A stretch of DNA of 64,000 bases, from the NCBI RefSeq assembly GCF_027595985.1, contig NC_073302.1:393318403-393382402 (forward strand), in the 5' to 3' direction. Position 1 is the stretch's first letter; each line of letters opens with the position of its first letter. This document shows positions 1-13,100 of this stretch, piece after piece. This DNA comes from Sorex araneus. Lineage: Eukaryota; Chordata; Mammalia; Eulipotyphla; Soricidae. The notes under the pieces were generated by a model, which worked only from the letters and a program-made list of their open reading frames with translations, made no database searches and was not told the origin of the DNA. Made by a program: the position numbers and the translations under genes.

Positions 1-181
1 GCCGCCCATCTACAAGATAGTTAGACTTCTTCGTCAAGACCCTGAATGAACAGTTTGAGGTTCTTCAAGTTAATGAAGCAAGTAGACACCACTGGACTAC
101 ACTAGCACGTGACAGAGATGAAAGGAGATGTTACTGGAACCGGCTTGAGGAAATTGAGCAACAGGATGACAAGTGATACAA

Positions 182-184
<3 letters not shown>
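1..184 (+). repeat. 3' part of an unclassified repeat ending in a SINE-B-like tail
   Basis: Bases from about 128 match the 3' end of SINE B (a GTTACTGG segment, a degenerate GAGCAACAGGATGACA, then two copies of AAGTGATA). The preceding 125 bases do not match the SINE B body. One frame from base 5 is open to a TGA at 47-49, with a short basic peptide (IYKIVRLLRQDPE). It is too short to call a gene. The element runs off the left edge of the window. Confidence 0.5.

Positions 185-236
<52 letters not shown>
185..236. repeat. (AT)n microsatellite
   Basis: About 26 uninterrupted AT dinucleotides directly follow the AAGTGATA tail repeats, so the tract probably grew from the tail of the preceding retroposon. 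Confidence 0.95.
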
Positions 237-237
<1 letters not shown>

Positions 238-240
<3 letters not shown>

Positions 241-937
241 GGTCCCCCCCGTCCCAGCAGAACCTAAACAGTTGAGGACCTCTGGAACCTAGCCACGGCC
301 ATGCTCAGGGCCATTCTCCACATGTTTGGACAAGCCTCACACATGGGAGAGCCGGCGGAGGAACCCAGGTGTGTGGGACCTGGGGCCGAGATCTCCAAGG
401 CTGCTCGGATCAGGACTGGGCCTCTTCCACCCACATCCCCCAATTTCCAGTAGCTAGGCAGTCACACCCAGAGATTTCCTCTGGCACCATGTAATCCTAT
501 CAATAGCCAAGATCCAGAGACTATAAAACCAAGTTCCCGGAAGCGGCTGAGCGACATCTAATAGCTTAGTTCTCCCTCTTGGAGAACCTGACAAGAAATC
601 GAGAGTCTATTGCCCACTTGGGAGAGCCTGGCAAGCTTCCCGTGGCATATTCATATCCAAAATACAGTAACAGTTGTATACATACCTCTCGGAGAACCCA
701 GCAAGCTACTGAGAGTATCCCGCCCACACGACAGAGCCTGGCAAGCTACCCGTGGCATATTCTATATGCCAAAAACAGTAACAATAGGCCTCATTCCCCT
801 GACCCTGAAAGAGCCTCCAATTGTTGAAAAATACAAGTAAGTAGAGGCTGCTCAAATCTCAGGGCTGAGTGCAATAGAGACGTTACTGGTGCCTGCTCGA
901 GTAAATCAACGAACAACGGGATGACAGTGATACAGTG
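238..937 (+). repeat. Composite SINE-B-related retroelement, copy 1
   Basis: The order of parts is as follows. A non-SINE 5' section spans about 238-560. Two consecutive SINE-B core units follow (about 569-680 and 686-788), each with a GGAGA-CCTG/CCAGCAAGCTAC-type start and an ACAGTAACA end. Then comes a section not found in SINE B (about 789-868), and the SINE B 3' tail ending in two CAGTGATA repeats. There is no tRNA-like head. A colinear second copy lies at 40345-40886 and aligns from about 370 onward, so 238-370 may be separate. No protein is encoded. Confidence 0.7.
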
Positions 938-956
938 ATATATACATATTCATACT

Positions 957-1095
957 AAAAGTGGGATAGATTGGGTTTAAGAGAATCAAACTGCAATTTC
1001 TGCAGCTATCCAACTCTCACTACTCTCTCTTTCTCACTCTGTATATATATAGAAATTGCAGTTTGATTCTCTTAAACCCAATCTATCCCACTTTT
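957..1095. repeat. Perfect 45-bp inverted repeat (hairpin) with 49-bp loop
   Basis: Bases 957-1001 are the exact reverse complement of 1051-1095. The spacer (1002-1050) is CT-rich and ends in a short TA run. Neither arm matches the SINE families in the window. It lies 20 bases after the composite element. It could be a recent inverted duplication, a hairpin RNA source or an assembly artefact. Confidence 0.9.
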
Positions 1096-1096
1096 C

Positions 1097-2372
1097 GTGT
1101 GCCTCCTTGAATCAAAGTGGTGAATCAGCTAAGGCATTTCCAAGCCTTTAGTGTAGCAAGATTTTACATAAAAAATAAGATTTTGACAAGGAAATGTATT
1201 CATGATGTCTTTGGAGGAGTAAGTGAGCAGGATGTGATGGCAGCTGTTAGTGGTAGATGAATTTTTCTGGCTGACATGCTAACAGGGATATTTGGCTCTA
1301 CTCTAGTAAACTCAGATGTTTGAACATTTAGTCCTCACATTACCTGTGGTGTCTTGTAGTATTCACATCACCTGTGCTGTGTGGCTGTGAAGTCTACAGG
1401 GTAGTAGACTACCTGTAATTACTATTGATATTGATATCTATTCCTCTGAGTAGGAATAGATATTCCTTTGTATTCAGGCAGCATTTCAGCTAATCATGAA
1501 TCTTTGTCTGGTGGAAGTGATTCAAAGCATAATAGTCAGACACTGAGGGGCAGGAGGATATTATTCTTAGCTGTGTTTCACCTGGTCACCTATATTAAAC
1601 TTTGGTTATTACTTTCCAAAAAATATCTGTAAAGGTTCTTAATAATCTGCAATAAATTCCTTCTTCTGTAAACTCGATAAAATTTATTCTCTTATCTGCA
1701 ATTAGAACTTTATTTATGAAATTGAGAATTTGGGGATTCCCAACAAATTAATCTTTAGATTAGTCTTAAAAACAACTCAATTGCTGTGTGTCTGAAACAT
1801 TTCATATTAATAAAAATTGCTATTATTGTCATCATAGAATTCATTTATTCATGCAATACATAATTATTAACTATTTAACATATCTGAAAACATGGCAATT
1901 AAAAGAAAACTCCAAATATATTTGTATATATATTTGTATTTGTATATTTCTATATATATATCCTCTATATAATGGAACTTCCATTTTATAGAGGAGAAAG
2001 AGACAATAAAATATGCAAACACTAAGAGGGTGGTACTAGGAAGAAAAGTAGAAAAGTAAAGCAGGAGGGGAAGATTGGCTGGATTCTTTAGGAATGGTGG
2101 CTAGCAAAGTTACTGAGAAAATGATATTTGAGTAAAAATCTAAAGGACAAACATTCTGGACTGAGGGAACAATCAGTTCAACAGCCTGGAGGTAGAAGAA
2201 TGTAGTAGGTTGAAAGAACAGTAAGGAACCCACTGTGGCTGGCAGGCAGGAGGTGACGTGTCAAAGGAGATTATACAGTCAAGTGGAAACAAAGGTATTT
2301 GATGCAAACATTTGATGGAGTACCTGGTAATCTCAAAAATATTTGTGAATATGAAAATATGTTAATTATCAA
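1097..2372. other. Intergenic sequence, no gene seen
   Basis: AT-rich, apparently single-copy sequence. A TA-rich stretch lies at about 1914-1972. I see no coding exon and no recognisable repeat apart from that tract. Confidence 0.6.
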
Positions 2373-2532
2373 AACCTGACAAGCTACCTGTGGTGTATTT
2401 GATATGCCAAAAACAGTAACAAAAAAAAAAAAACAAAAACAAAAACAGTAACAAGAAGTCTCACAATAGAGACGTTACTGGTGCCCACTCGAGCAAATCG
2501 ATGAGCAACGGGATGACAGTGATACAGTGATC
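2373..2532 (+). repeat. SINE B, 5'-truncated
   Basis: Begins inside the body (CCTGACAAGCTACC-type sequence) and lacks the tRNA head. It runs to the CAGTGATACAGTGATCA tail. The internal AAAAACAGTAACA segment has expanded into an A-rich stretch at 2420-2446. Confidence 0.85.
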
Positions 2533-2984
2533 AATAAAATAGAATAATAAAAATAGGAAAATTTTCAGGAATGTTCTGATTTCTTAAAACAGTGCCCTCA
2601 AACAGTGTTTGCTACTCTGATCAGAGGGTACTGGACTGACCCAGCTGGGAGGTAGTACCTTTGTCACAGCAGGCAGGGCAGGGCAGGACAAGGGAGGCCT
2701 GTTTTCTGTTTGTTCACTTGTAGGATGGTTTCTAGGTCAGTGACTAGTAATATTTTTTTGCCTGGGAACCCCTGACCTAAAACAGTGGTGGTGCCTCCTG
2801 ATCTTCAGGGAATGGTTGCGCTGTGCGTGTCTTTGGATTCCAGTGGAGAAATTCTGGTGTAAAAATGTAAAGGGAACATTTGAAAGAACTATTGATATTC
2901 ACTCTCCCACCCTAGGCCCAAATACCTCAACCAGCATGGAAGTGCCATGGGTGCATCGTCACATTATCTATATTAATTGCACAT
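2533..2984. other. Intergenic sequence, no gene seen
   Basis: Single-copy-looking sequence without exon signals. A short purine-rich GGCAGGGCAGG run lies near 2671-2690. Confidence 0.5.
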
Positions 2985-3118
2985 GAAGCTGACAATGTGA
3001 GGTATTGTAAGCTCTAGTGTACAGATGAAGAAACTCAAAGGAGATATTCTCAAGATCATATAACCAGCAGGTAGTGGAAATTGGAGTTACATACAGTGCA
3101 GTTTGTCAGACTTTACAT
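2985..3118 (+). repeat. MIR-type SINE remnant
   Basis: Contains the degraded MIR core: ACAGATGAAGAAACTCAAAG, then AGATCATATAACCAGCAGG, and GTGGAAATTGGAGTT. The order matches the family consensus as I know it. Confidence 0.7.
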
Positions 3119-3155
3119 TCTTTTTGAGTATTCCCATAAAGTCTCACAGTAGTTT

Positions 3156-3160
<5 letters not shown>

Positions 3161-3199
<39 letters not shown>

Positions 3200-3362
3200 C
3201 TTTTTGGGTCACACCCAGCGATGCTCAGGGGTTACTCCTGGCTTTGCACTCAGGAATTACTCCTGGCGGTGCTTGGGGGACCATATGGGATGCCGGGGAT
3301 CGAACCCAGGTCGGCCGCATGCAAGGCAAACGCCCTACCCGCTGTGCTATCGCTCCGGCCCT
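3161..3362 (-). repeat. SINE A with an (AT)n tail
   Basis: In element orientation the head starts at about 3362 and the body ends near 3200. The tail has become an (AT)n tract of about 36 bases (3161-3196). A 13-bp direct repeat GTTTTAACTATAT flanks it at 3152-3164 and 3363-3375. This confirms retroposition and shows that the microsatellite belongs to the insertion. Confidence 0.93.
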
Positions 3363-3375
3363 GTTTTAACTATAT

Positions 3376-3815
3376 TTACAAGTGAAATTTTTTTTCTCCT
3401 TAGCCAAAAAATGTTTTGTTTTGATCTTTGAAAGAGAGCAAGAGAGAAATATCCCACTGGGAAAAGACTTCTGTGAACTTTGAGTCAGTAAATCAAGACA
3501 TCCTAATATAGCCTTTTCTCATATGACCCATTTTTCATGTTTTGAATCACATGTTTTTTGTTCCATTTAGAAAACCTCTTTGTATAGTCTCTCCCATTCT
3601 TCATTTATCTTTTCTTGCAAGTTACTTAATATATAGTGACCCCTTTGATGCAGAGTGATCAACTAATAGCTGAAGATTGTCCTTTTAATATGCCCTAGTT
3701 TCTTTGTTTTCAAAAATACTTATATTTCTTTGTAAACAATTTGCAATTGTTTTTGGTGGTTCCAGAAATTCATATCATATTTTACAGAATGCATCGTTGA
3801 TATATTTACATGATT
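3376..3815. other. Intergenic sequence, no gene seen
   Basis: AT-rich single-copy sequence without coding or repeat signals that I can recognise. Confidence 0.5.
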
Positions 3816-4020
3816 GTGTAGGTATGGGTATGTGGCTTAGAGGTAGAAAGCCTGCCTTGCAGATGTGAGGACACAATTTTCTTTTTTCTGTTTTCACTTT
3901 GTCTGCCATATCCAGTCACCCTGGCAGGGCCCAGGGGGACCATATTTGCTATGAGGAACTGAATCCTGGTCAGCCCCTTGCAAGGCAAGCACCTTATGTA
4001 CTGTAGTATTTCTCTGCTCC
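3816..4020. repeat. Degraded SINE fragments
   Basis: 3903-4020 resembles an old minus-strand SINE A (GGGGGACCATAT, then CCCTTGCAAGGCAAGCACC). 3823-3875 resembles a plus-strand tRNA-like SINE head (GTGGCTTAGAGGTAGAAAGC). Both are strongly diverged. Confidence 0.5.
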
Positions 4021-4743
4021 CCGACACCCCCCACCCGGACATAAATTCTATTCCCCACAACACCTCATATCCCTGAGTGTGGTCTGGGGACATAGTTTTG
4101 GTGATCCCCATCCATAAGCATGTGATCTTTATTGTATAAATGAGTGGGTGTGAGCTCTGAGGCCAAGGGTGGGAATCCTTGTGAATGCTGCAATTCTAGT
4201 GTTTAATCCCTTGACATGGCAACAGTGACAACAGTGGAAAGAAAGGAAGGAATAATATATAAAGAACAGTGCTGCTATGTGTTATTACAATTTGTAAAAA
4301 TTTCATCCAACAAAGTAAAGCAATGTTACATTCTATCATGTTTACTTCTGTTCTTTCTTTTCCTTTCAGAAATAAAGCAGTGATCTGTACAAAGGATAGA
4401 CCTTTTATATTTCTTCCTAGTCCCATTTTCCTTTCTATTGTTCTAGACAATAACTATTATGAAATTACTTCATATTAATTTGTTTTATTCTTGAACTATA
4501 TTTAATGTGTCATATACAAGTCTGTCACTTTTTTGCCATTTTCTGAAGCATTTTAAAAAAGGTTTTCCCTCTGTAAGAGCTATTTATCAAATCATTATTA
4601 ACTGTTTCCTTAGTATTAGATATTAGAGTACAATGTTTTTCTTTTATAAATTACATGGGTGATCATTTTTGTTCTAATATTTTTATATGTATCTTTGATA
4701 AGTTTTTGTATGTATCTTTGTATATATCTTTTATAATTTTGTA
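4021..4743. other. Intergenic sequence, no gene seen
   Basis: AT-rich sequence. Short open frames on both strands near 4196-4478 lack any recognisable domain. Confidence 0.5.
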
Positions 4744-4996
4744 TATCACTGTATCACTGTACCACTGTCATTCCGTTGCTCATCGATTTGCTCGGGTGGG
4801 CACCAGTAACGTCTCCATTGTGAGACTTGTTGTTACTGTTTTTGGCATATAGGATACGCCATAGGTAGCTTGCCAGGCTCAGCCGTGCAGGCAAGATACT
4901 CTGGGTAGCTTGCCAGGTTCTCTGAGGGGGGGAGGAATCGAACCCAGGTCAGCTGCGTGCAAGGCAAATGCCCTACCCGCTGTGCTATCACTCCAT
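4744..4996 (-). repeat. SINE B, near full length
   Basis: Complete head to tail in reverse orientation. The reverse complement of the tail is three CACTG-containing repeats at 4744-4768. The B box (GAATCGAACCC on this strand) is intact at about 4935. Confidence 0.93.
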
Positions 4997-5169
4997 GTTT
5001 GTGAGCATTTTTGCCCTTACATTTTTGTATATTGTCACTGATGATTTTTTCAGGCATCAAAGAAAGTAATATCAAAGAATTCATAGAAATTATAAAAATA
5101 ATTGATGGGAAGTTTAAAAATATCTGTGGAAATGAATGGGAGAACAACTGTATATTACCATTAGAAGAT

Positions 5170-5395
5170 AATAACAGGCCCAGAGAAATTGTATAAGGGT
5201 TAAGACACACAACTTGCACGTGCCCCACCTTGGTTCTATCCCTGGTACCACTGACTTCTTCAAGGATTGCTGGGAGCCTCCCTGGTCTCCTGAATACTCC
5301 CAGCACTAAGAGGCCTGAGCTGCATCACATAGCCCAGTTGGCCAAGAGTGGCTGGGAGCCCCCTGCCACAAGCCCCTCCAAGGAGACAATAACCA
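5170..5395 (+). repeat. Old SOR-like SINE
   Basis: A diverged tRNA-like head (AGGGTTAAGACACACAACTT, then GGTTCTATCCCTGG) is followed by a body with TGGGAGCC and AGGCCTGAGC. It is clearly older than the SINE A copies. Confidence 0.55.
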
Positions 5396-5419
5396 CTAGC
5401 AGAATTCTTTCTTTCTAGT

Positions 5420-5770
5420 AATTTCTTTCCATAAAGTACACATAGTCCTCTCCCTACCCCTATCCCCATATAGTCCACTATACTTAGGAACATATTATTC
5501 ATTAATATTTGTTTCCAGCTGTTTTATATTCATATTATATGATTACATTTCCTTAATTCATTTAGTATTCTCTGTAAAACTTAATATTCAATGTTTATAT
5601 AATTCTATTATATACAATAAAATAGTTCATTAAGCCATTCTATTATTTGGGGACACTTACATGGTTTTATTTTTAATCAAATTAAATAATAATAATTCTT
5701 GTGTAGAAACTTTGTGCTCCATATTAGTTCTATAATTTAGAGTTCTGAAAGTAAAAATCACTGGACTAAG
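5420..5770 (-). repeat. Old L1 3' region fragment (antisense)
   Basis: The sequence follows the order of an inverted mammalian L1M 3' end, including a degraded ATAGTTCATTAAGCCATTCT and GGGGACACTTACATGG block. Divergence is high. Confidence 0.5.
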
Positions 5771-5864
5771 TCATAAACATTATTAAAACACTTAATAAAT
5801 ATTGTCAAATTATTCTACTATTCCTTTGACAGTTTAAAATTTTATTATTTTTTGCTAATTAAAT

Positions 5865-6118
5865 GGACTGGAGCAATAGCACAGCAGGTAGGGTGTTTGC
5901 CTTGCACGTGGCTGACCTGGGTTCAATTCCTCCATCCCTCTCGGAGAACCCGGCTAGCTACCGAGAATATCCCTCCCACATGGCAGAGCCTGGTAAGCTA
6001 CCTGTGGCATATTCCATATGCCAGAAACAGTAACAACAAGTCTCACAATGGAGGTGTTACTGGTGCCCGCTCAAGCAAATCGATGAACAATGGGGCGACA
6101 GTGCTACAGTGCTACAGT
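5865..6118 (+). repeat. SINE B, full length with target-site duplication
   Basis: Runs from GGACTGGAGCAATAGC to a tail of three ACAGTGCT repeats. The 11-bp duplication GCTAATTAAAT lies at 5854-5864 and 6119-6129. GCTA is common to both the tail repeat and the target. Confidence 0.95.
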
Positions 6119-6129
6119 GCTAATTAAAT

Positions 6130-6489
6130 ATAGAAAACATGCTTTATAAATGTTTTTATATTGATAGCTTAAAGTAAATTAAAAATTTCAGAAAATTTTT
6201 CTAACTTTTGTGAACTAAGCCAATAGTTTACAAAGTATTTCTACTAAAATTTATTTTAAGTTAAAAAAGAAAATAAGAGAAATTTATGTTTAGCATTATT
6301 TTAGTAAAACAGTGGGTCTTATTTGGTTGTTAACAAAGTTTGGTTATATTTTCACATACACACTGCATAAAATACACTGAAAAATTGATGACTAGCTGGT
6401 AAGTTTAGCCTATTTATATCCTCCTAGTTGAACCCTTTGCCCAAATTTTCTCTCATCTTCCAAACTGGAATTTAGCAAGTTATTATTAT
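6130..6489. other. Intergenic sequence, no gene seen
   Basis: Very AT-rich single-copy sequence. Confidence 0.5.
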
Positions 6490-6652
6490 TTTCTGGTTCA
6501 TTTGCCACACATAGAGGTTCTCCAGGGCTATTCCTGATTTTGAGCTCAGGAGTTGATCCCTGGTGGTGCTCAAGGGGTCCAATTTAGTAATGATTTCAAC
6601 AGAGCTGTGGATAGAAGGCAAGTGCCTTAACCACTGACACTCCTGTCCAAAA
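6490..6652 (-). repeat. Old SINE A-like copy
   Basis: Reverse-orientation body with TTGAGCTCAGGAGTTGATCC, then GGTGGTGCTCAAGGGG and AGGCAAGTGCCTTAACCACT. Strongly mutated. Confidence 0.6.
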
Positions 6653-6728
6653 TGGAAGGACTGACCAAATTATTTCAGTTATCTGCTGTTAGATTTTCAA
6701 ATATTAGGCACCAGGGAGTATTGGTATT

Positions 6729-6901
6729 TTTTTTTTTGGCTTTTTGGTCATACCAATTGATGCTCAGGGGTTACTCCTGGCTCTGTACTCAGGAATGACT
6801 CTTGGCGGTGCTCAGGGGATCATATGGGATGCCAGAGATTGAACCCAGGTTGGCTGCATGCAAAGCAAATGCTCTCTTCACTGTGCTATCGCTCCGACCC
6901 C
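6729..6901 (-). repeat. SINE A
   Basis: Full-length reverse copy. A poly(T) run at 6729-6738 corresponds to the A tail. The head ends at TATCGCTCCGACCCC. It is moderately diverged. Confidence 0.9.
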
Positions 6902-7121
6902 TTTTAATGATTTTTTTTTGGAGTACTGGTATTTTTTAGAAATTTCCTTTTGCTCTCCTTCTCTTCACTAGTTTTAATTACCTTGGGTCAAGATGTTTCC
7001 TGTGAATGTATTTATGGATAGTGACAAATTGTCCAACACAGAAAATTTTCTAATGTTCACTAACTGGAACAACCTTTATTATTTTAAGGATTAATGTTTT
7101 CAGTTTACTAGTCATGCTTTT

Positions 7122-7282
7122 AGAAGCTTCTTAAACTGTGAGCTGTCACTCCATATGTGGTCACATAACTAAAAGAATACTTTAAATGTGTTTATGGTTT
7201 ATTGATAAATGTTTGATTGGTATACAACATTTTATATGCCAATACACCTAAGGCTATGAGAGAAAAAAGTTAAAGAAGCCTG
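7122..7282 (+). mobile_element. hAT-type DNA transposon remnant
   Basis: Starts AGAAGCTTCTTAAACTGTG and ends near AAAGTTAAAGAAGCCTGG. The interior reads GTCACTCCATATGTGGTCAC and TTTATTGATAAATG. These resemble an ancient non-autonomous mammalian hAT family whose ends carry a CTTCTTAAACTGTGGGTC-type motif. No clear duplication flanks it. Confidence 0.55.
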
Positions 7283-7443
7283 GTTAGTGAACAAAAATAA
7301 TAATACAATTTGACTTAAAGTCTGGATAGATTAAAGAAAAAAAGAATATTTTAAAAGAAAATATGACTTAACAAGGTACCCAAAAAAAGTACATATACAA
7401 AGAAAATTAGATCTTACAGAGGTAAGCATAAAACAAAGAGATC

Positions 7444-7608
7444 TGGGTCAGAGATGGTACAGTGGCTAAGGCGTTTGTCTTGCTCTCTGCCAAGTCTAGT
7501 TAGATCCCCAAAGACGGGCAAGGAGTGATCTCTGAGAACAGAGCCAGGAGTAAACCCTGAGCACTTCAGGATGTGGTCCAACCCTACCCAATGCCCCTAA
7601 AGAAAGAA
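7444..7608 (+). repeat. Old SOR-like SINE
   Basis: A degraded head (GATGGTACAGTGGCTAAGGC) is followed by GAACAGAGCCAGGAGTAAAC, CCTGAGCAC and GTGGTCCAACC. Confidence 0.6.
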
Positions 7609-7649
7609 ACCACCAAAGGAAAATCCTGAGTATCTAAAACCAACTGTTT

Positions 7650-7813
7650 ATTTTTTTTAATCATACTCCGAAATGCACAGGGGTTACTCCTGGCTCTGCA
7701 CTCAAGAATTACTTCTGGTGGTGCTCAGGGGACCATATGAGATACTGGGGATCAAACCCGGACAGCTGCTAGCAAGGAAAACGCCCTACCCACTGTGCTA
7801 TTATTCCAGCCCC
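7650..7813 (-). repeat. SINE A
   Basis: Reverse copy with a poly(T) start near 7650. The body has TGCACAGGGGTTACTCCTGG, and the head ends at TATTCCAGCCCC. Confidence 0.88.
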
Positions 7814-8928
7814 TGAAAATCAATAATTTTTGGTCAAAAAAGAGAGAATTTGAAAAATAATTGAAATAATTGGAAATAATTTTTTGAAAGATGAAACTAA
7901 TATACAAAAGCTAGAATTATATAAAAATTGCACATACAAGAGAAATAGTATATACAAAATTATTCAGTATCAGTAAGCTTAAAATTATATTATTATCATT
8001 TATCAAAATGAAAATATGTGAAGCATAACCAAAGTTCTGTGCTGTGGAAACACAAATTGTGGGTAACTGTTAATTTGAAATTTTTGGAGGGAACTGAAAT
8101 TTTTGAAGTTATCTTCCCATGACAGACTTTAAAAATAAAGACTGTATGACCCATTGATTTAAATTCTCGAAAGACATCATAGAATACTAGAAGGAAATGC
8201 ATATACAGATAGGGCATTCACTCTGAAATTTCTTGTGATGTCTATTACTTGAAAAAATGGTTATTATCCCAAATTGCATATATCTACTAAGGAAACCTTA
8301 TACAGAAACCTTAAACCAAAACCAAAACCTTACATATAACTATATTGTTATAATAGAGTTTGATGACTTAAGCAAATATTTACTTAAATTAAGGAGGAAA
8401 ATAAATGCAGTTTACAAATCATTTGTAGGATATTGTTATTAACAGGAAAGAGAAAATTTGGACATTCCGTGTGAGACCATTTGAAGGACTTTAAAGTCAC
8501 AGAGACAGAAAAAGTCAGGTCAGTTTGTATTGACTAGGTAATATCGGCTAGCTAAACTTCTGCAGACACTCAATTATCACAAATAACTTGGGTGTGTCCT
8601 TAACTCATCCATTCACAAAAATCATACTAAGGACCACTTAAGGTCCGAACACTAACAAAGGCATCTTATTCACCACTTGGTGCCCACCACCCCTTCAAAG
8701 TGTGTTTTTCGAATTAAAAGCAAAAACAAGAACAACTAAAACCCAGACTACTCCCGTCCCTGTACACTTGGGAGAACCTTTATCCCCCCACCCCAGGAAC
8801 AAAAGAGCTTGCTTGCCATGAGATCACACATGCTTGCCCCATGAAAAACACCAATCGCCCCAACTGCTGCTATCTCCAACCCTCTCCCATGTGCGCTCGC
8901 CTGCCACCCTTCCCAGTGCTCTGCGTCC
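7814..8928. other. Upstream flank of the CpG island, no gene seen
   Basis: AT-rich until about 8600, then base composition becomes balanced towards the CpG island. No exon or young repeat is visible. Confidence 0.55.
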
Positions 8929-8992
8929 ATCAGTTTACTGAATCCTCACGACCACCCTGCGGGAGGTTGGGCACTGCGATGCCCCCCTCAAA
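8929..8992 (+). repeat. Possible MIR fragment
   Basis: TTTACTGAATCCTCACGACC followed by ACCCTGCGGGAGG resembles the MIR segment with AATCCTCACAACAACCCTG. It is short and sits at the edge of the CpG island, so confidence is limited. Confidence 0.45.
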
Positions 8993-9633
8993 GACGGTGT
9001 GGACGTCGAGTCACAAACTGCATCTGGATTTCATCGCCCTTTCCTCCCCGCCATCTCACGCCCAGGCTCCTGGAAACTCAATCTGCCGCTAAAGAGCTGG
9101 GACCCTCACGAAGGGATGTACCTAGGGGCGCATCCGTGTGTCCAAACGCGGGAAGGGTGCGGGAAAGTAGGGAGCTTTTTAGAGACCCGCGGGCGGAAAA
9201 CAATGTCTTCATGTGCCGTGTCTTACACCCGCTGCATCCCCGGAGCGGCCCTCCTGGTGTCCCCAGGGGACCGGGAAAGCCGACCCTAGCGGGGGACTCG
9301 CCCGGCCTCTCGCGCCCTCCGCTGCGTAAGGAGGCGCCCGCCCCCACACGGCGGCGACGCAGCCCCCGAGGACCCGGGGGAGCCGGGCCGCAGCCTCCGC
9401 CCGTGCCACCTGCTCGCGGGCTCCCGCGTCCCCGCCCCGCGTCCCGCCCCCACGCCGCGCCCGCGCCCCGCGGTCCCTCCCTCCCTCCCTCCGGCGTGAC
9501 GGGCCGCGAGCGCAGCCGAGCTGTCAGCGGGCGCACGGGGCGGGCGCGCAGCCCTCGCGGCCGGGGAGCGGAGCGCGCGCCGGGGACGCTGCCTGGCTGC
9601 TGCGGGCTGCCGGCCGAGCGTCTCGGGCCGGAG

Positions 9634-9822
9634 ATGTTGCTCCTCACCCCGGGCTCGGCCCGGGGCAGGGGCCGGGGGCGGCCGGCGGGGGCTCCCCGCG
9701 GTGGGCTCTCGTCGCCCTGGAGCCCCGCCTGGATTTGCTGCTGGGCGCTCGCCGGTTGCCGGGCGGCCTGGGCTGGGGACCAACCCGCCGCCGCCAGCCG
9801 CCCGTTGCCTCCTTGCCAGGAG
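9634..9822 (+). CDS. ELAPOR2: ELAPOR2 (KIAA1324L/EIG121L) exon 1, coding part
   Basis: This exon encodes the first 63 residues of a type I membrane glycoprotein. The family member is about 1,030 residues long in human, is linked to endosome/lysosome trafficking, and has been reported to modulate BMP signalling. The peptide contains SPWSPAWICCWALAGC, then AAWAGD and SRPLPPCQE, which agree with my recollection of the human N-terminus. Residues 33-47 form a hydrophobic signal-peptide core after a basic, Gly/Pro-rich start, with a plausible cleavage AWA|G at 47/48. ATG 9634-9636 has a G at -3 and is the first ATG for more than 400 bases. The frame stays open further upstream to ATG 9211, but that extension is low-complexity CpG-island sequence and I do not accept it. 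The exon ends in phase 0 at GAG|GTGAGC. The rest of the protein is not in this window. Identification is strong; an alignment would confirm it. Confidence 0.9.
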
Positions 9823-9828
9823 GTGAGC
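9820..9828 (+). promoter_or_regulatory. ELAPOR2: Splice donor of exon 1
   Basis: GAG|GTGAGC matches the mammalian donor consensus and falls exactly where the family-like peptide ends (PCQE). Downstream translation (VSCTWSF) no longer resembles the family, which supports the boundary. Confidence 0.88.
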
Positions 9829-9859
9829 TGCACCTGGTCCTTCACCTGGAGTTTGCGGC

Positions 9860-9888
9860 GGGGGGGAGGGGGTGGGACGGCGGGCGGG
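9860..9888 (+). promoter_or_regulatory. G-quadruplex-prone tract at the start of intron 1
   Basis: Runs of G7, G5, G3 and two later GGG runs with one- to six-base spacers lie 38 bases after the donor on the sense strand. This arrangement fits a stable G-quadruplex in DNA or nascent RNA. Confidence 0.6.
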
Positions 9889-10110
9889 TGATGGAGCGGG
9901 GGAGGTGCCTGTTTATTGCTCTCTGCGGTCGCCTCCTTCCTTGCTTGGTAGCAGGGATGAAGTTGGCAGCTCGGGGGAAGCTGGCCGGGCGAGGGTGTGT
10001 GGCTGGGCTATCTTGGGTGATGCTTTTCTCCTCGCACTCGTGTTTCTAGGGCTCTGAAGGACTTTGGAGGACCTGGGGTCGTCGGGGGCGGGGGCGAACC
10101 CCGCCGTGCA

Positions 10111-13100
10111 CAGCTCTTACAGAGTCGGATACTGCCACATCAGGGTTCCCGCTTCTAACCTTGGTCCCCGCACCTCCTCTTCTTTCTCCTCCCTTGGGGT
10201 CTCTACATTCCCTTCTTCCTGGCCCGCTGCACCCCGCACCCCGATAAGGCCCCGGAGGCTTGCTAAACCCATGTGTGGTGTCACTTAGCATCTTTCTGGA
10301 AAAAAATGTATATGAATTAGGAAGGGGGAAAAAAAAGAATGTTCTTGGGGGAGCGTAGGGTTGGTGATCTAGAAAATGAGAAAGACGGTGATTATGCTGC
10401 TCGGGGGGATGTATGTGCCCGTCACCTGGCTGAAGCACTGCTGCTGTGTATATTTTTATAGCTTGAAATTATTGTTGATTTATAGCCAAGAAGGAGAAAT
10501 TATGGGTGATGAGGTTTCCTCCTGCTTTTAGGGAAACTGTACTTACTGTGCCAAAAAATATCTATAGGGGTGTCATTGGTACTGGTATTGGGTGTTTATC
10601 TTTCCCTTTAATGTTCCAGAAAGTGCATCCTCTTAATGAAAATCAATGAGGGAAGGGAGCAACATTTTTGACCTACTTTGAGTGATTTTTGTTGGGGAGG
10701 ATTTGAGGCGTGAACACTGGTTTTAGGAAGATTGCTAGGAGTCAGAATGATGGGTCATTTTAATTTAGTTAAAAAAATAGATTAGCCAGTAGGCCCTTAG
10801 GGAAGAAAGCCCAGAACCTGTTCCTTTGTGTCTGATGCTGTAACTTTTGAATTTTACTCAGGCTTGAGTTAGAGTATCTGCATGCAGGCAGGGCACCACC
10901 TGTCACCCGAGGATTTTCATCTTCCTCTCTGACAGCAAAAGCCCCAGGACAGAAGAAAATGAAATAACCCAGTACAAAGGAAAAGTCTTTGAGTACGCAG
11001 CTCGGCTGACTCGACAAACAGCTGTGTTTAATTTCAGTCTATTAGTATAATCAGTACTTTCATCTGTGGTCTCCAATTTTACCTGTCACCTGGGGATCAT
11101 GCATCCTTTCAGGTTCCTACAGGAAGCTGCTTCTTGGACAGCCTCAGTTTTGAACAGTTCTGATGGGACAGTTTAAACCATGCCTTTTAGTTCAAAGCCC
11201 CAATAGAAAGAATATACATCATTTAAGAAATGGAAATATTAATATTCATGGCATTAATTATTAGTAATGGAAAAAGTGTGCTGGAAGGGAGTGACAGGCA
11301 GGGCCAGTGGGAATAGTGTGTTTTGGTCACTAATCCTTTAAATGACCCTATGTTCTGCGTAGGAATATCTAGCGAAAAGACAGGAAAAACTACATCCTAA
11401 GGCAGAAACTTTGAAAGTAGAGCAAGGATATGACAATGTTTAGGAAGACCATGTACAACAAATTCTAGCCCTTGTTGCCCTGGATTTAGAAATTGCATAT
11501 GGCTCCATCAACTGTGGTTTCAAGTTTGAATTTTCCCTCCAAAAATGAAGATAAAATATATAATAGAATGCCATGGGTGTGCTGCCTGTATCTTGTTGTA
11601 TCTGAAAAATATTGAAATACAAACTAAATTGTATTCTTCCTGAATACTGACAAATAGTTGGAAAGTGACTGGGAATCAGAGACCCCTTTGGAAATAGGAG
11701 AGTCAAATGGCCTCTCAGGGAAGAATCTGCTCCCTTTGTTTGGTCTTACTGAGTTAATTTACAGAAATTATCATTGTTCTAGCATTGTTTTTTTCAGAGG
11801 AAAGAGAGAAACCGGTTTCTTAGACTTTAGTAAGAGTATAGAGGTAGAGCTTCATGTGACATATAGTTATGGTTATGTGGGCCAAGATCTTGTGGACATA
11901 GAATTAATGTAGGAATAGAGTGTGACTCTCTTCCCACACTTGATTAACAGAAAAGCAGGTTAGTGCCATATAGGAGGGATACACTGTGTGGTGGGGAGGA
12001 GAGAGAGCAAAGGAGGAAGGGGGTCTGAGATTGGAAATCAAAGCCGACCCTTAGTAATGTGAAAAAAAGGTTTCAGTATGGACAAGGCTGCAGGTAATTC
12101 TAAACTTCATTTCCTGTATATAGTTTGAAGCTCACTCTCCTTTATTATTTATTTTTGTGTGTGTGAAATTAGTTGTGTTTCAGGTTACATAGACTTGTTT
12201 TCCTTCCCTGTTTTTAGAGGAAAGCATGAAAGGAAAAGCAAGAAGGAACATCAAAAATTGTTCTGCAAGTGATCTAGTTATGATTGCCGGAGTTCAGAAA
12301 AAGGCCTTTTAAAGAGACTTAGATTATGGGGGAAATTTTCACTTAGATTCTTACAGAGGATGGAACTCTGGGGTGAAACTTCTAAAATTCTCCTTTGCCG
12401 AAAGCTGTGGATGATGGAGTCAAAAAGGGGAGAAAAATGATTACTTTGGAATCAGCTGGTGATCAAATGAGCAGGATGGAAGCACGATTACAAACAGGAA
12501 GGCTATAGTTTGGGAGTCAGAAAAGTCAATGTGCCAGCAGATGAAGGACAAAAATAGGATGTGACTTCAATAAATGCTTTTTAAAGGGAAAAAAGTGTGT
12601 GGACTAGGCATCCAAGAAGACAGAGTTAATATTTCTGAGGCTGTCCTGTGGGAGTAAACTTACAAAGGTTGAATATGTTTCTTTTTCTTGGCATCTGTTT
12701 TTTGTGTATGAATTTACAATAATAAAAGCTGACCTACCTGTCTTTACCATGAGAATGAGATGAAATTGATACATTAAAGGGAAAAAATCTACGTAAATAA
12801 GAGAGTTGATTATTGTTAAATTAGCAGACCTAAATCCTATATTTCAGAAAGGTCTATAGTAAGTTTTCAGAGGTTGATAGAATAGGCTTCTACAAGAATT
12901 GAATGAAAATTTTGACTCATCGTAAATAAGGCTTAATGGGGCTGCCAGAGTGAAAAATATAAAGAGGCCAACAAATGATTCAGAGTTGCAGTAAGGTACT
13001 AGACAATAGAGAACATGAGACTAAAAGAACAAAACTAAGTGGATTGTGTGTGCATTATTTAAATTTGGGAAATTAAATCACAGAATAACTTGATTCTTGG

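Follow-up and report, generated by a model that had tools for sequence, protein, structure and literature searches.

The inverted repeat and its setting

The window, meaning the whole 64,000-nucleotide stretch of Sorex araneus DNA that was analysed, contains an inverted repeat whose arms, at 957–1001 and 1051–1095, are complementary at 45 of 45 positions and are separated by a spacer of 49 bases (1002–1050). The perfect 45-bp inverted repeat and 49-base loop of the original prediction are re-found base for base. Carried outwards, the arms match at 49 of 51 positions (951–1001 against 1051–1101); the perfect part thus has the length given to it, and the repeat as a whole is slightly longer than claimed. 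A looser extension covers 951–1012/1040–1101 at 89% identity. The features of the locus are as follows.

277..941, + strand: SINE-like repeat that stops shortly before the left arm; where it starts is uncertain, with pieces piling up from 573, 685 and 872
936..950, + strand: AT-rich stretch similar to the sequence that adjoins the homologue of 1086 on its left in C4, a resemblance noticed afterwards
951..1001, + strand: left arm, the putative inverted copy; perfect from 957, with mismatches against the right arm at 953 and 956
1002..1050, no strand: spacer of 49 bases, pyrimidine-rich and then (TA)n
1051..1101, − strand: right arm, the putative source; perfect to 1095, with mismatches at 1096 and 1099
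1086..1101: outer 16 bases of the right arm, inside the C4-homologous segment

Given the base composition of the window and spacers of up to 1000, about 5e-19 such pairs are expected per 64 kb, and the 45-bp inverted repeat is beyond chance. It is the sole perfect inverted repeat in the 64-kb window under a filter that requires arms of at least 20, a spacer of up to 1000 and a 3-mer entropy of at least 3.3, and that drops low-complexity pairs. RNA folding gives a single long stem for each strand, at −79.1 kcal/mol (z −15.0) for the + strand and −77.7 kcal/mol (z −12.7) for the − strand. No TTTT is present on the + strand over window 1–1091; the first lies at 1092–1095, at the end of the right arm.

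Judged from repeat matches, the sequence up to 941 appears to be a SINE plus its tail. Twenty-three fetched loci yield 256 repeat matches, many of which are simple AT repeats at 185–239. Frequent match ends fall at 672, 793, 784 and 938, and the matches end at about 938–941, some ten bases short of the left arm, with repeat coverage dropping from 9 at 941 to 0 at 961. Genome matches to 900–1150 behave in the same way, 38 of 41 spanning only its first 65 bases or fewer. In the search for a SINE target-site duplication, the repeat has no clear start.

When up to 3 mismatches are allowed, the 45-base arm has one forward and one reverse match in 2.406 Gb, both at this locus, and a genome search with 951–1101, in which very common words were skipped, finds no second locus. 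Because both searches find one locus, no dispersed palindrome is recognised of which the hairpin would be a copy. The surrounding DNA had been described as otherwise unique, which holds for the arm as a single-locus sequence and fails for its neighbourhood: the left side adjoins the SINE-like tail, and the right arm from 1086 belongs to a two-copy segment.

No gene was placed in the window by a Pfam scan of 10 of its 116 open stretches of at least 75 aa (0 of 10 with a match). Positions 8845–10046 are GC-rich with overlapping long open frames, four open stretches there having no Pfam match, and perhaps constitute a CpG island. In a profile covering 1–12000, GC content reaches 70–76% at 9001–10000, 8 kb from the hairpin, and the GC-rich stretch near these positions may be a promoter.

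The C4 segment and the identity of the arms

The 325 bp at 1086–1410 (+ strand) are copied at G000:C4:19270223-19270547 (− strand), ungapped and at 94% identity, with 20 differences in 325 positions. This is the one other copy of the segment detected, and it lies on a different contig. The sequence beside it on C4 we take to be L1-like, a point on which nothing here rests. The remaining matches between window 1–6000 and the 19.8 kb around the C4 copy are read as shared repeats, as are the best 15 matches from the 10 kb upstream and the best 12 from the whole window to the C4 stretch. The C4 copy is without the hairpin: it has neither the spacer nor the 35 innermost bases of the right arm. Either C4 has lost them, or the C4 homology simply ends at 1086, or a single fold-back is too simple an account of the event.

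The outer end of the right arm runs on into the C4-homologous segment, whereas the outer end of the left arm halts at the repeat tail. Because it is the right arm end, and not the left, that continues into this segment, the left arm is taken as the copy. Source and copy can be compared over the 16 positions covered by C4, two of which are informative. First, at 1096 the left arm and C4 have the same base and the right arm differs, a pattern that fits copying before the right arm changed. Second, at 1099 it is the left arm that differs, C4 having the base of the right arm. Both arms have the same base at 1094, where C4 differs. These few sites suggest that the left arm was copied from the right arm and that one change per arm followed later.

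The arms diverge at 2 of 51 positions (95% interval 0.5–13%) and the C1–C4 segment at 20 of 325 (95% interval 3.8–9.3%), with no difference between the two (Fisher P 0.75). As the two values do not differ, nothing requires the repeat to be very recent or to be maintained. The original prediction held that neutral drift would quickly break such identity, an argument that is not compelling: at the 6.2% divergence of the adjoining two-copy segment, 45 positions stay unchanged with a probability of about 0.06, and 51 carry two or fewer changes with a probability of 0.38. The perfect inner 45 bp need no selection; they hint, without proof, that the hairpin is younger than the two-copy segment. The hairpin is a reminder that perfect arms need not signal selection.

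Proposed fold-back copying and its alternatives

The hairpin very probably arose by a single inverted duplication, in which one fold-back or template switch copied the right arm to give the left. The left arm is a reverse-complement copy of a neighbouring tract across a short spacer, and over the 16 positions covered by C4 one arm is continuous with older flank and the other is not. The event may have taken place during replication, or during break repair beside the AT-rich tail of the SINE. The 3’ end of the right-arm strand, broken or stalled, would have folded back over the 49-base spacer and been extended by up to ~50 bases with its own upstream sequence as template, and the extended end would then have been rejoined on the SINE-tail side by end joining. 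Just beyond the arms, the bases at the two ends are not the same, a result that end joining could produce. No switch-point microhomology is seen by eye beside the outer arm ends, and microhomology on the inner side would have become part of the arm. Of the options raised at the outset, a recent template-switch inverted duplication is thus the best supported as to mechanism, but its recency is not required. The hairpin is best read as an ordinary mutation scar of a known kind, and no sign of function was found in the sequence analyses.

A background set of 293,900 bases was put through the same filter. It combines the window with the 10 kb upstream, with 19.9 kb of C4 and with a 200-kb sample drawn as 20 stretches from three contigs, two 100-base overlaps being included. 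The studied hairpin is one of five perfect inverted repeats that pass. The other four are as follows.

L033 hairpin, 294–328/334–368: 35-bp arms with a spacer of 5, in the region of about 80,000,150–80,000,450 of G000:C3
Two further pairs: arms of 29 and 33, with spacers of 576 and 631
Fifth pair: arms of 21 bp, 52-base spacer

The L033 hairpin copies bases of a SINE together with flanking bases. Within it is an 18-base SINE head with 9 occurrences in the 200-kb sample, of which the arms of the hairpin account for two, and 30 of 60 SINE repeat matches end at L033 288, right before the hairpin. Its 21-base flank has no second exact copy in the 200-kb sample, and the repeat does not extend beyond its perfect part (36 of 43 positions match over 286–328). 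It is read as the product of another, independent event of this kind. Scaled up, one hairpin in the 229.9 kb outside the window corresponds to ~10,000 genome-wide, with a 95% interval of ~265 to 58,000 and a size limit that was chosen after the L033 hairpin was seen. Two such hairpins in ~294 kb, the present one included, both at SINE-like ends, would make a genome-wide count worthwhile.

The fold-back reading has an age variant, possible though on balance unlikely, in which the hairpin predates the C1/C4 duplication and C4 later deleted the 135 bases equivalent to 951–1085. That the divergence of the arms does not differ from that of the C1–C4 segment is consistent with this variant, and the AT-rich stretch at 936–950 argues for it. 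Window 921–950, which runs up to the left arm, was compared with the 30 bases that adjoin the homologue of 1086 on its left in C4: the anchored score is 12, with a 2-base gap in the match at 936–950; scores as high or higher occur at 0 of 4000 random sites and 0 of 803 AT-matched sites. The last six bases, CATATT, have an overall frequency of 213 in 400,000 and start 0–5 bases after ATATATA at 0 of 1692 positions, which overlap and are not independent. However, this match was spotted only in hindsight, in AT-rich sequence that partly belongs to the SINE tail, and no homology is visible further left, where the best 15 matches of the upstream 10 kb to the C4 stretch are those read as shared repeats. 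If the resemblance at the C4 edge is homology, the two loci differ by the 135 bases at 951–1085, which were either gained here or lost on C4.

Whatever its age, a hairpin made by fold-back copying has its arm identity accounted for without selection, which weighs against a maintained hairpin RNA gene, that is, a young microRNA or a source of hairpin siRNA whose stem is under selection. Such a gene is very improbable, although the stem is very stable on both strands and patterns consistent with birth by template switching are reported at some human microRNA loci (PMC8794818). Sub-threshold scores are obtained for mir-962 on the + strand (41.9 bits against a threshold of 70, E 1.3e-06) and for MIR2275 on the − strand (34.5 bits against 60.5, E 0.00055). 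No Rfam family is matched at the gathering threshold in the 64-kb window, however, and the unrelated L033 hairpin, used as a control, scores equally (MIR3627 at 42.6 bits against 64, E 1e-07; mir-1289 at 37.2 against 66). Because this control scores alike, such sub-threshold microRNA scores are read as coming with any long stem and are not specific here. A known RNA gene is rejected on these results, and they lend no support to the earlier option of a maintained hairpin RNA.

Within 1–1300 no B box is present on either strand, and A-box matches are limited to 89 on the − strand with the strict pattern; the loose one adds 1118 and 1268 on the + strand. These results also count against a hairpin RNA gene, and Pol III read-through from the upstream repeat is rejected on them. 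It is highly improbable that retroposon ends are fold-back hot spots, with copy-back hairpins concentrated at SINE boundaries, and that, in addition, this hairpin is read through from the upstream repeat to yield an RNA ending at TTTT 1092–1095. In five SINE loci (L004–L008, 15,290 bases), spacers of up to 300 gave one pair of 20-base arms, without a spacer, and no longer arms, which lends the hot-spot idea no support.

An assembly or read fold-back artefact is very unlikely. The arms differ at two outer sites, and a copy made from a single molecule should have identical arms, an expectation that argues weakly against it. It is likewise highly improbable that the hairpin is the remaining member of a family of palindromic transposons (MITEs): its shape and arm size are like those of Made1, which has 37-bp arms and a 6-bp core (PMC1784062), but dispersed copies are not found, this being the only locus detected in 2.406 Gb, and the left arm copies right-flank bases that C4 has without a hairpin, as terminal inverted repeats would not. 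By eye, no direct repeat of the kind left by target-site duplication is present at the arm ends (15 bases left of 951 against those right of 1101).

Comparison with known systems

Several known systems can be set beside the hairpin. Made1 and mir-548 MITE hairpins resemble it in having arms of tens of bases that form a hairpin (PMC1784062); unlike the present hairpin, which occupies one locus, Made1 is a dispersed family. In yeast, fold-back insertions of 10 to over 150 bp, most of them ~5–34 bp, arise at a break via a hairpin with a 41-nt loop (PMC11724301). Both cases are hairpin-primed inverted duplications, and the 41-nt loop there compares with a spacer of 49 bases here. However, the yeast break is induced, most insertions are ~5–34 bp compared with ~50 here, and the present hairpin is without identifiable priming microhomology.

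Short-range template-switch mutations in mammal genomes are described by a four-point model. In six great-ape comparisons, 4017 such events were significant; perfect inverted repeats are a frequent outcome, and poly(dA:dT) tracts and AT-rich sequence are reported to be enriched around the events (PMC7954356). The local reverse-complement copy, the perfect or near-perfect inverted repeat and the AT-rich setting are shared with the present locus. Those events were called by aligning related species, unlike the event proposed here, which is deduced from one genome.

Human microRNA loci such as MIR633 show patterns consistent with template switching (PMC8794818). As at the present locus, one reverse-complement copying event explains the stem; those are microRNA loci, whereas the hairpin here is known from its sequence alone. 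The present hairpin clearly exemplifies how a long perfect hairpin can come from one mutation, and such hairpins are the sort of raw material that may give rise to microRNA genes.
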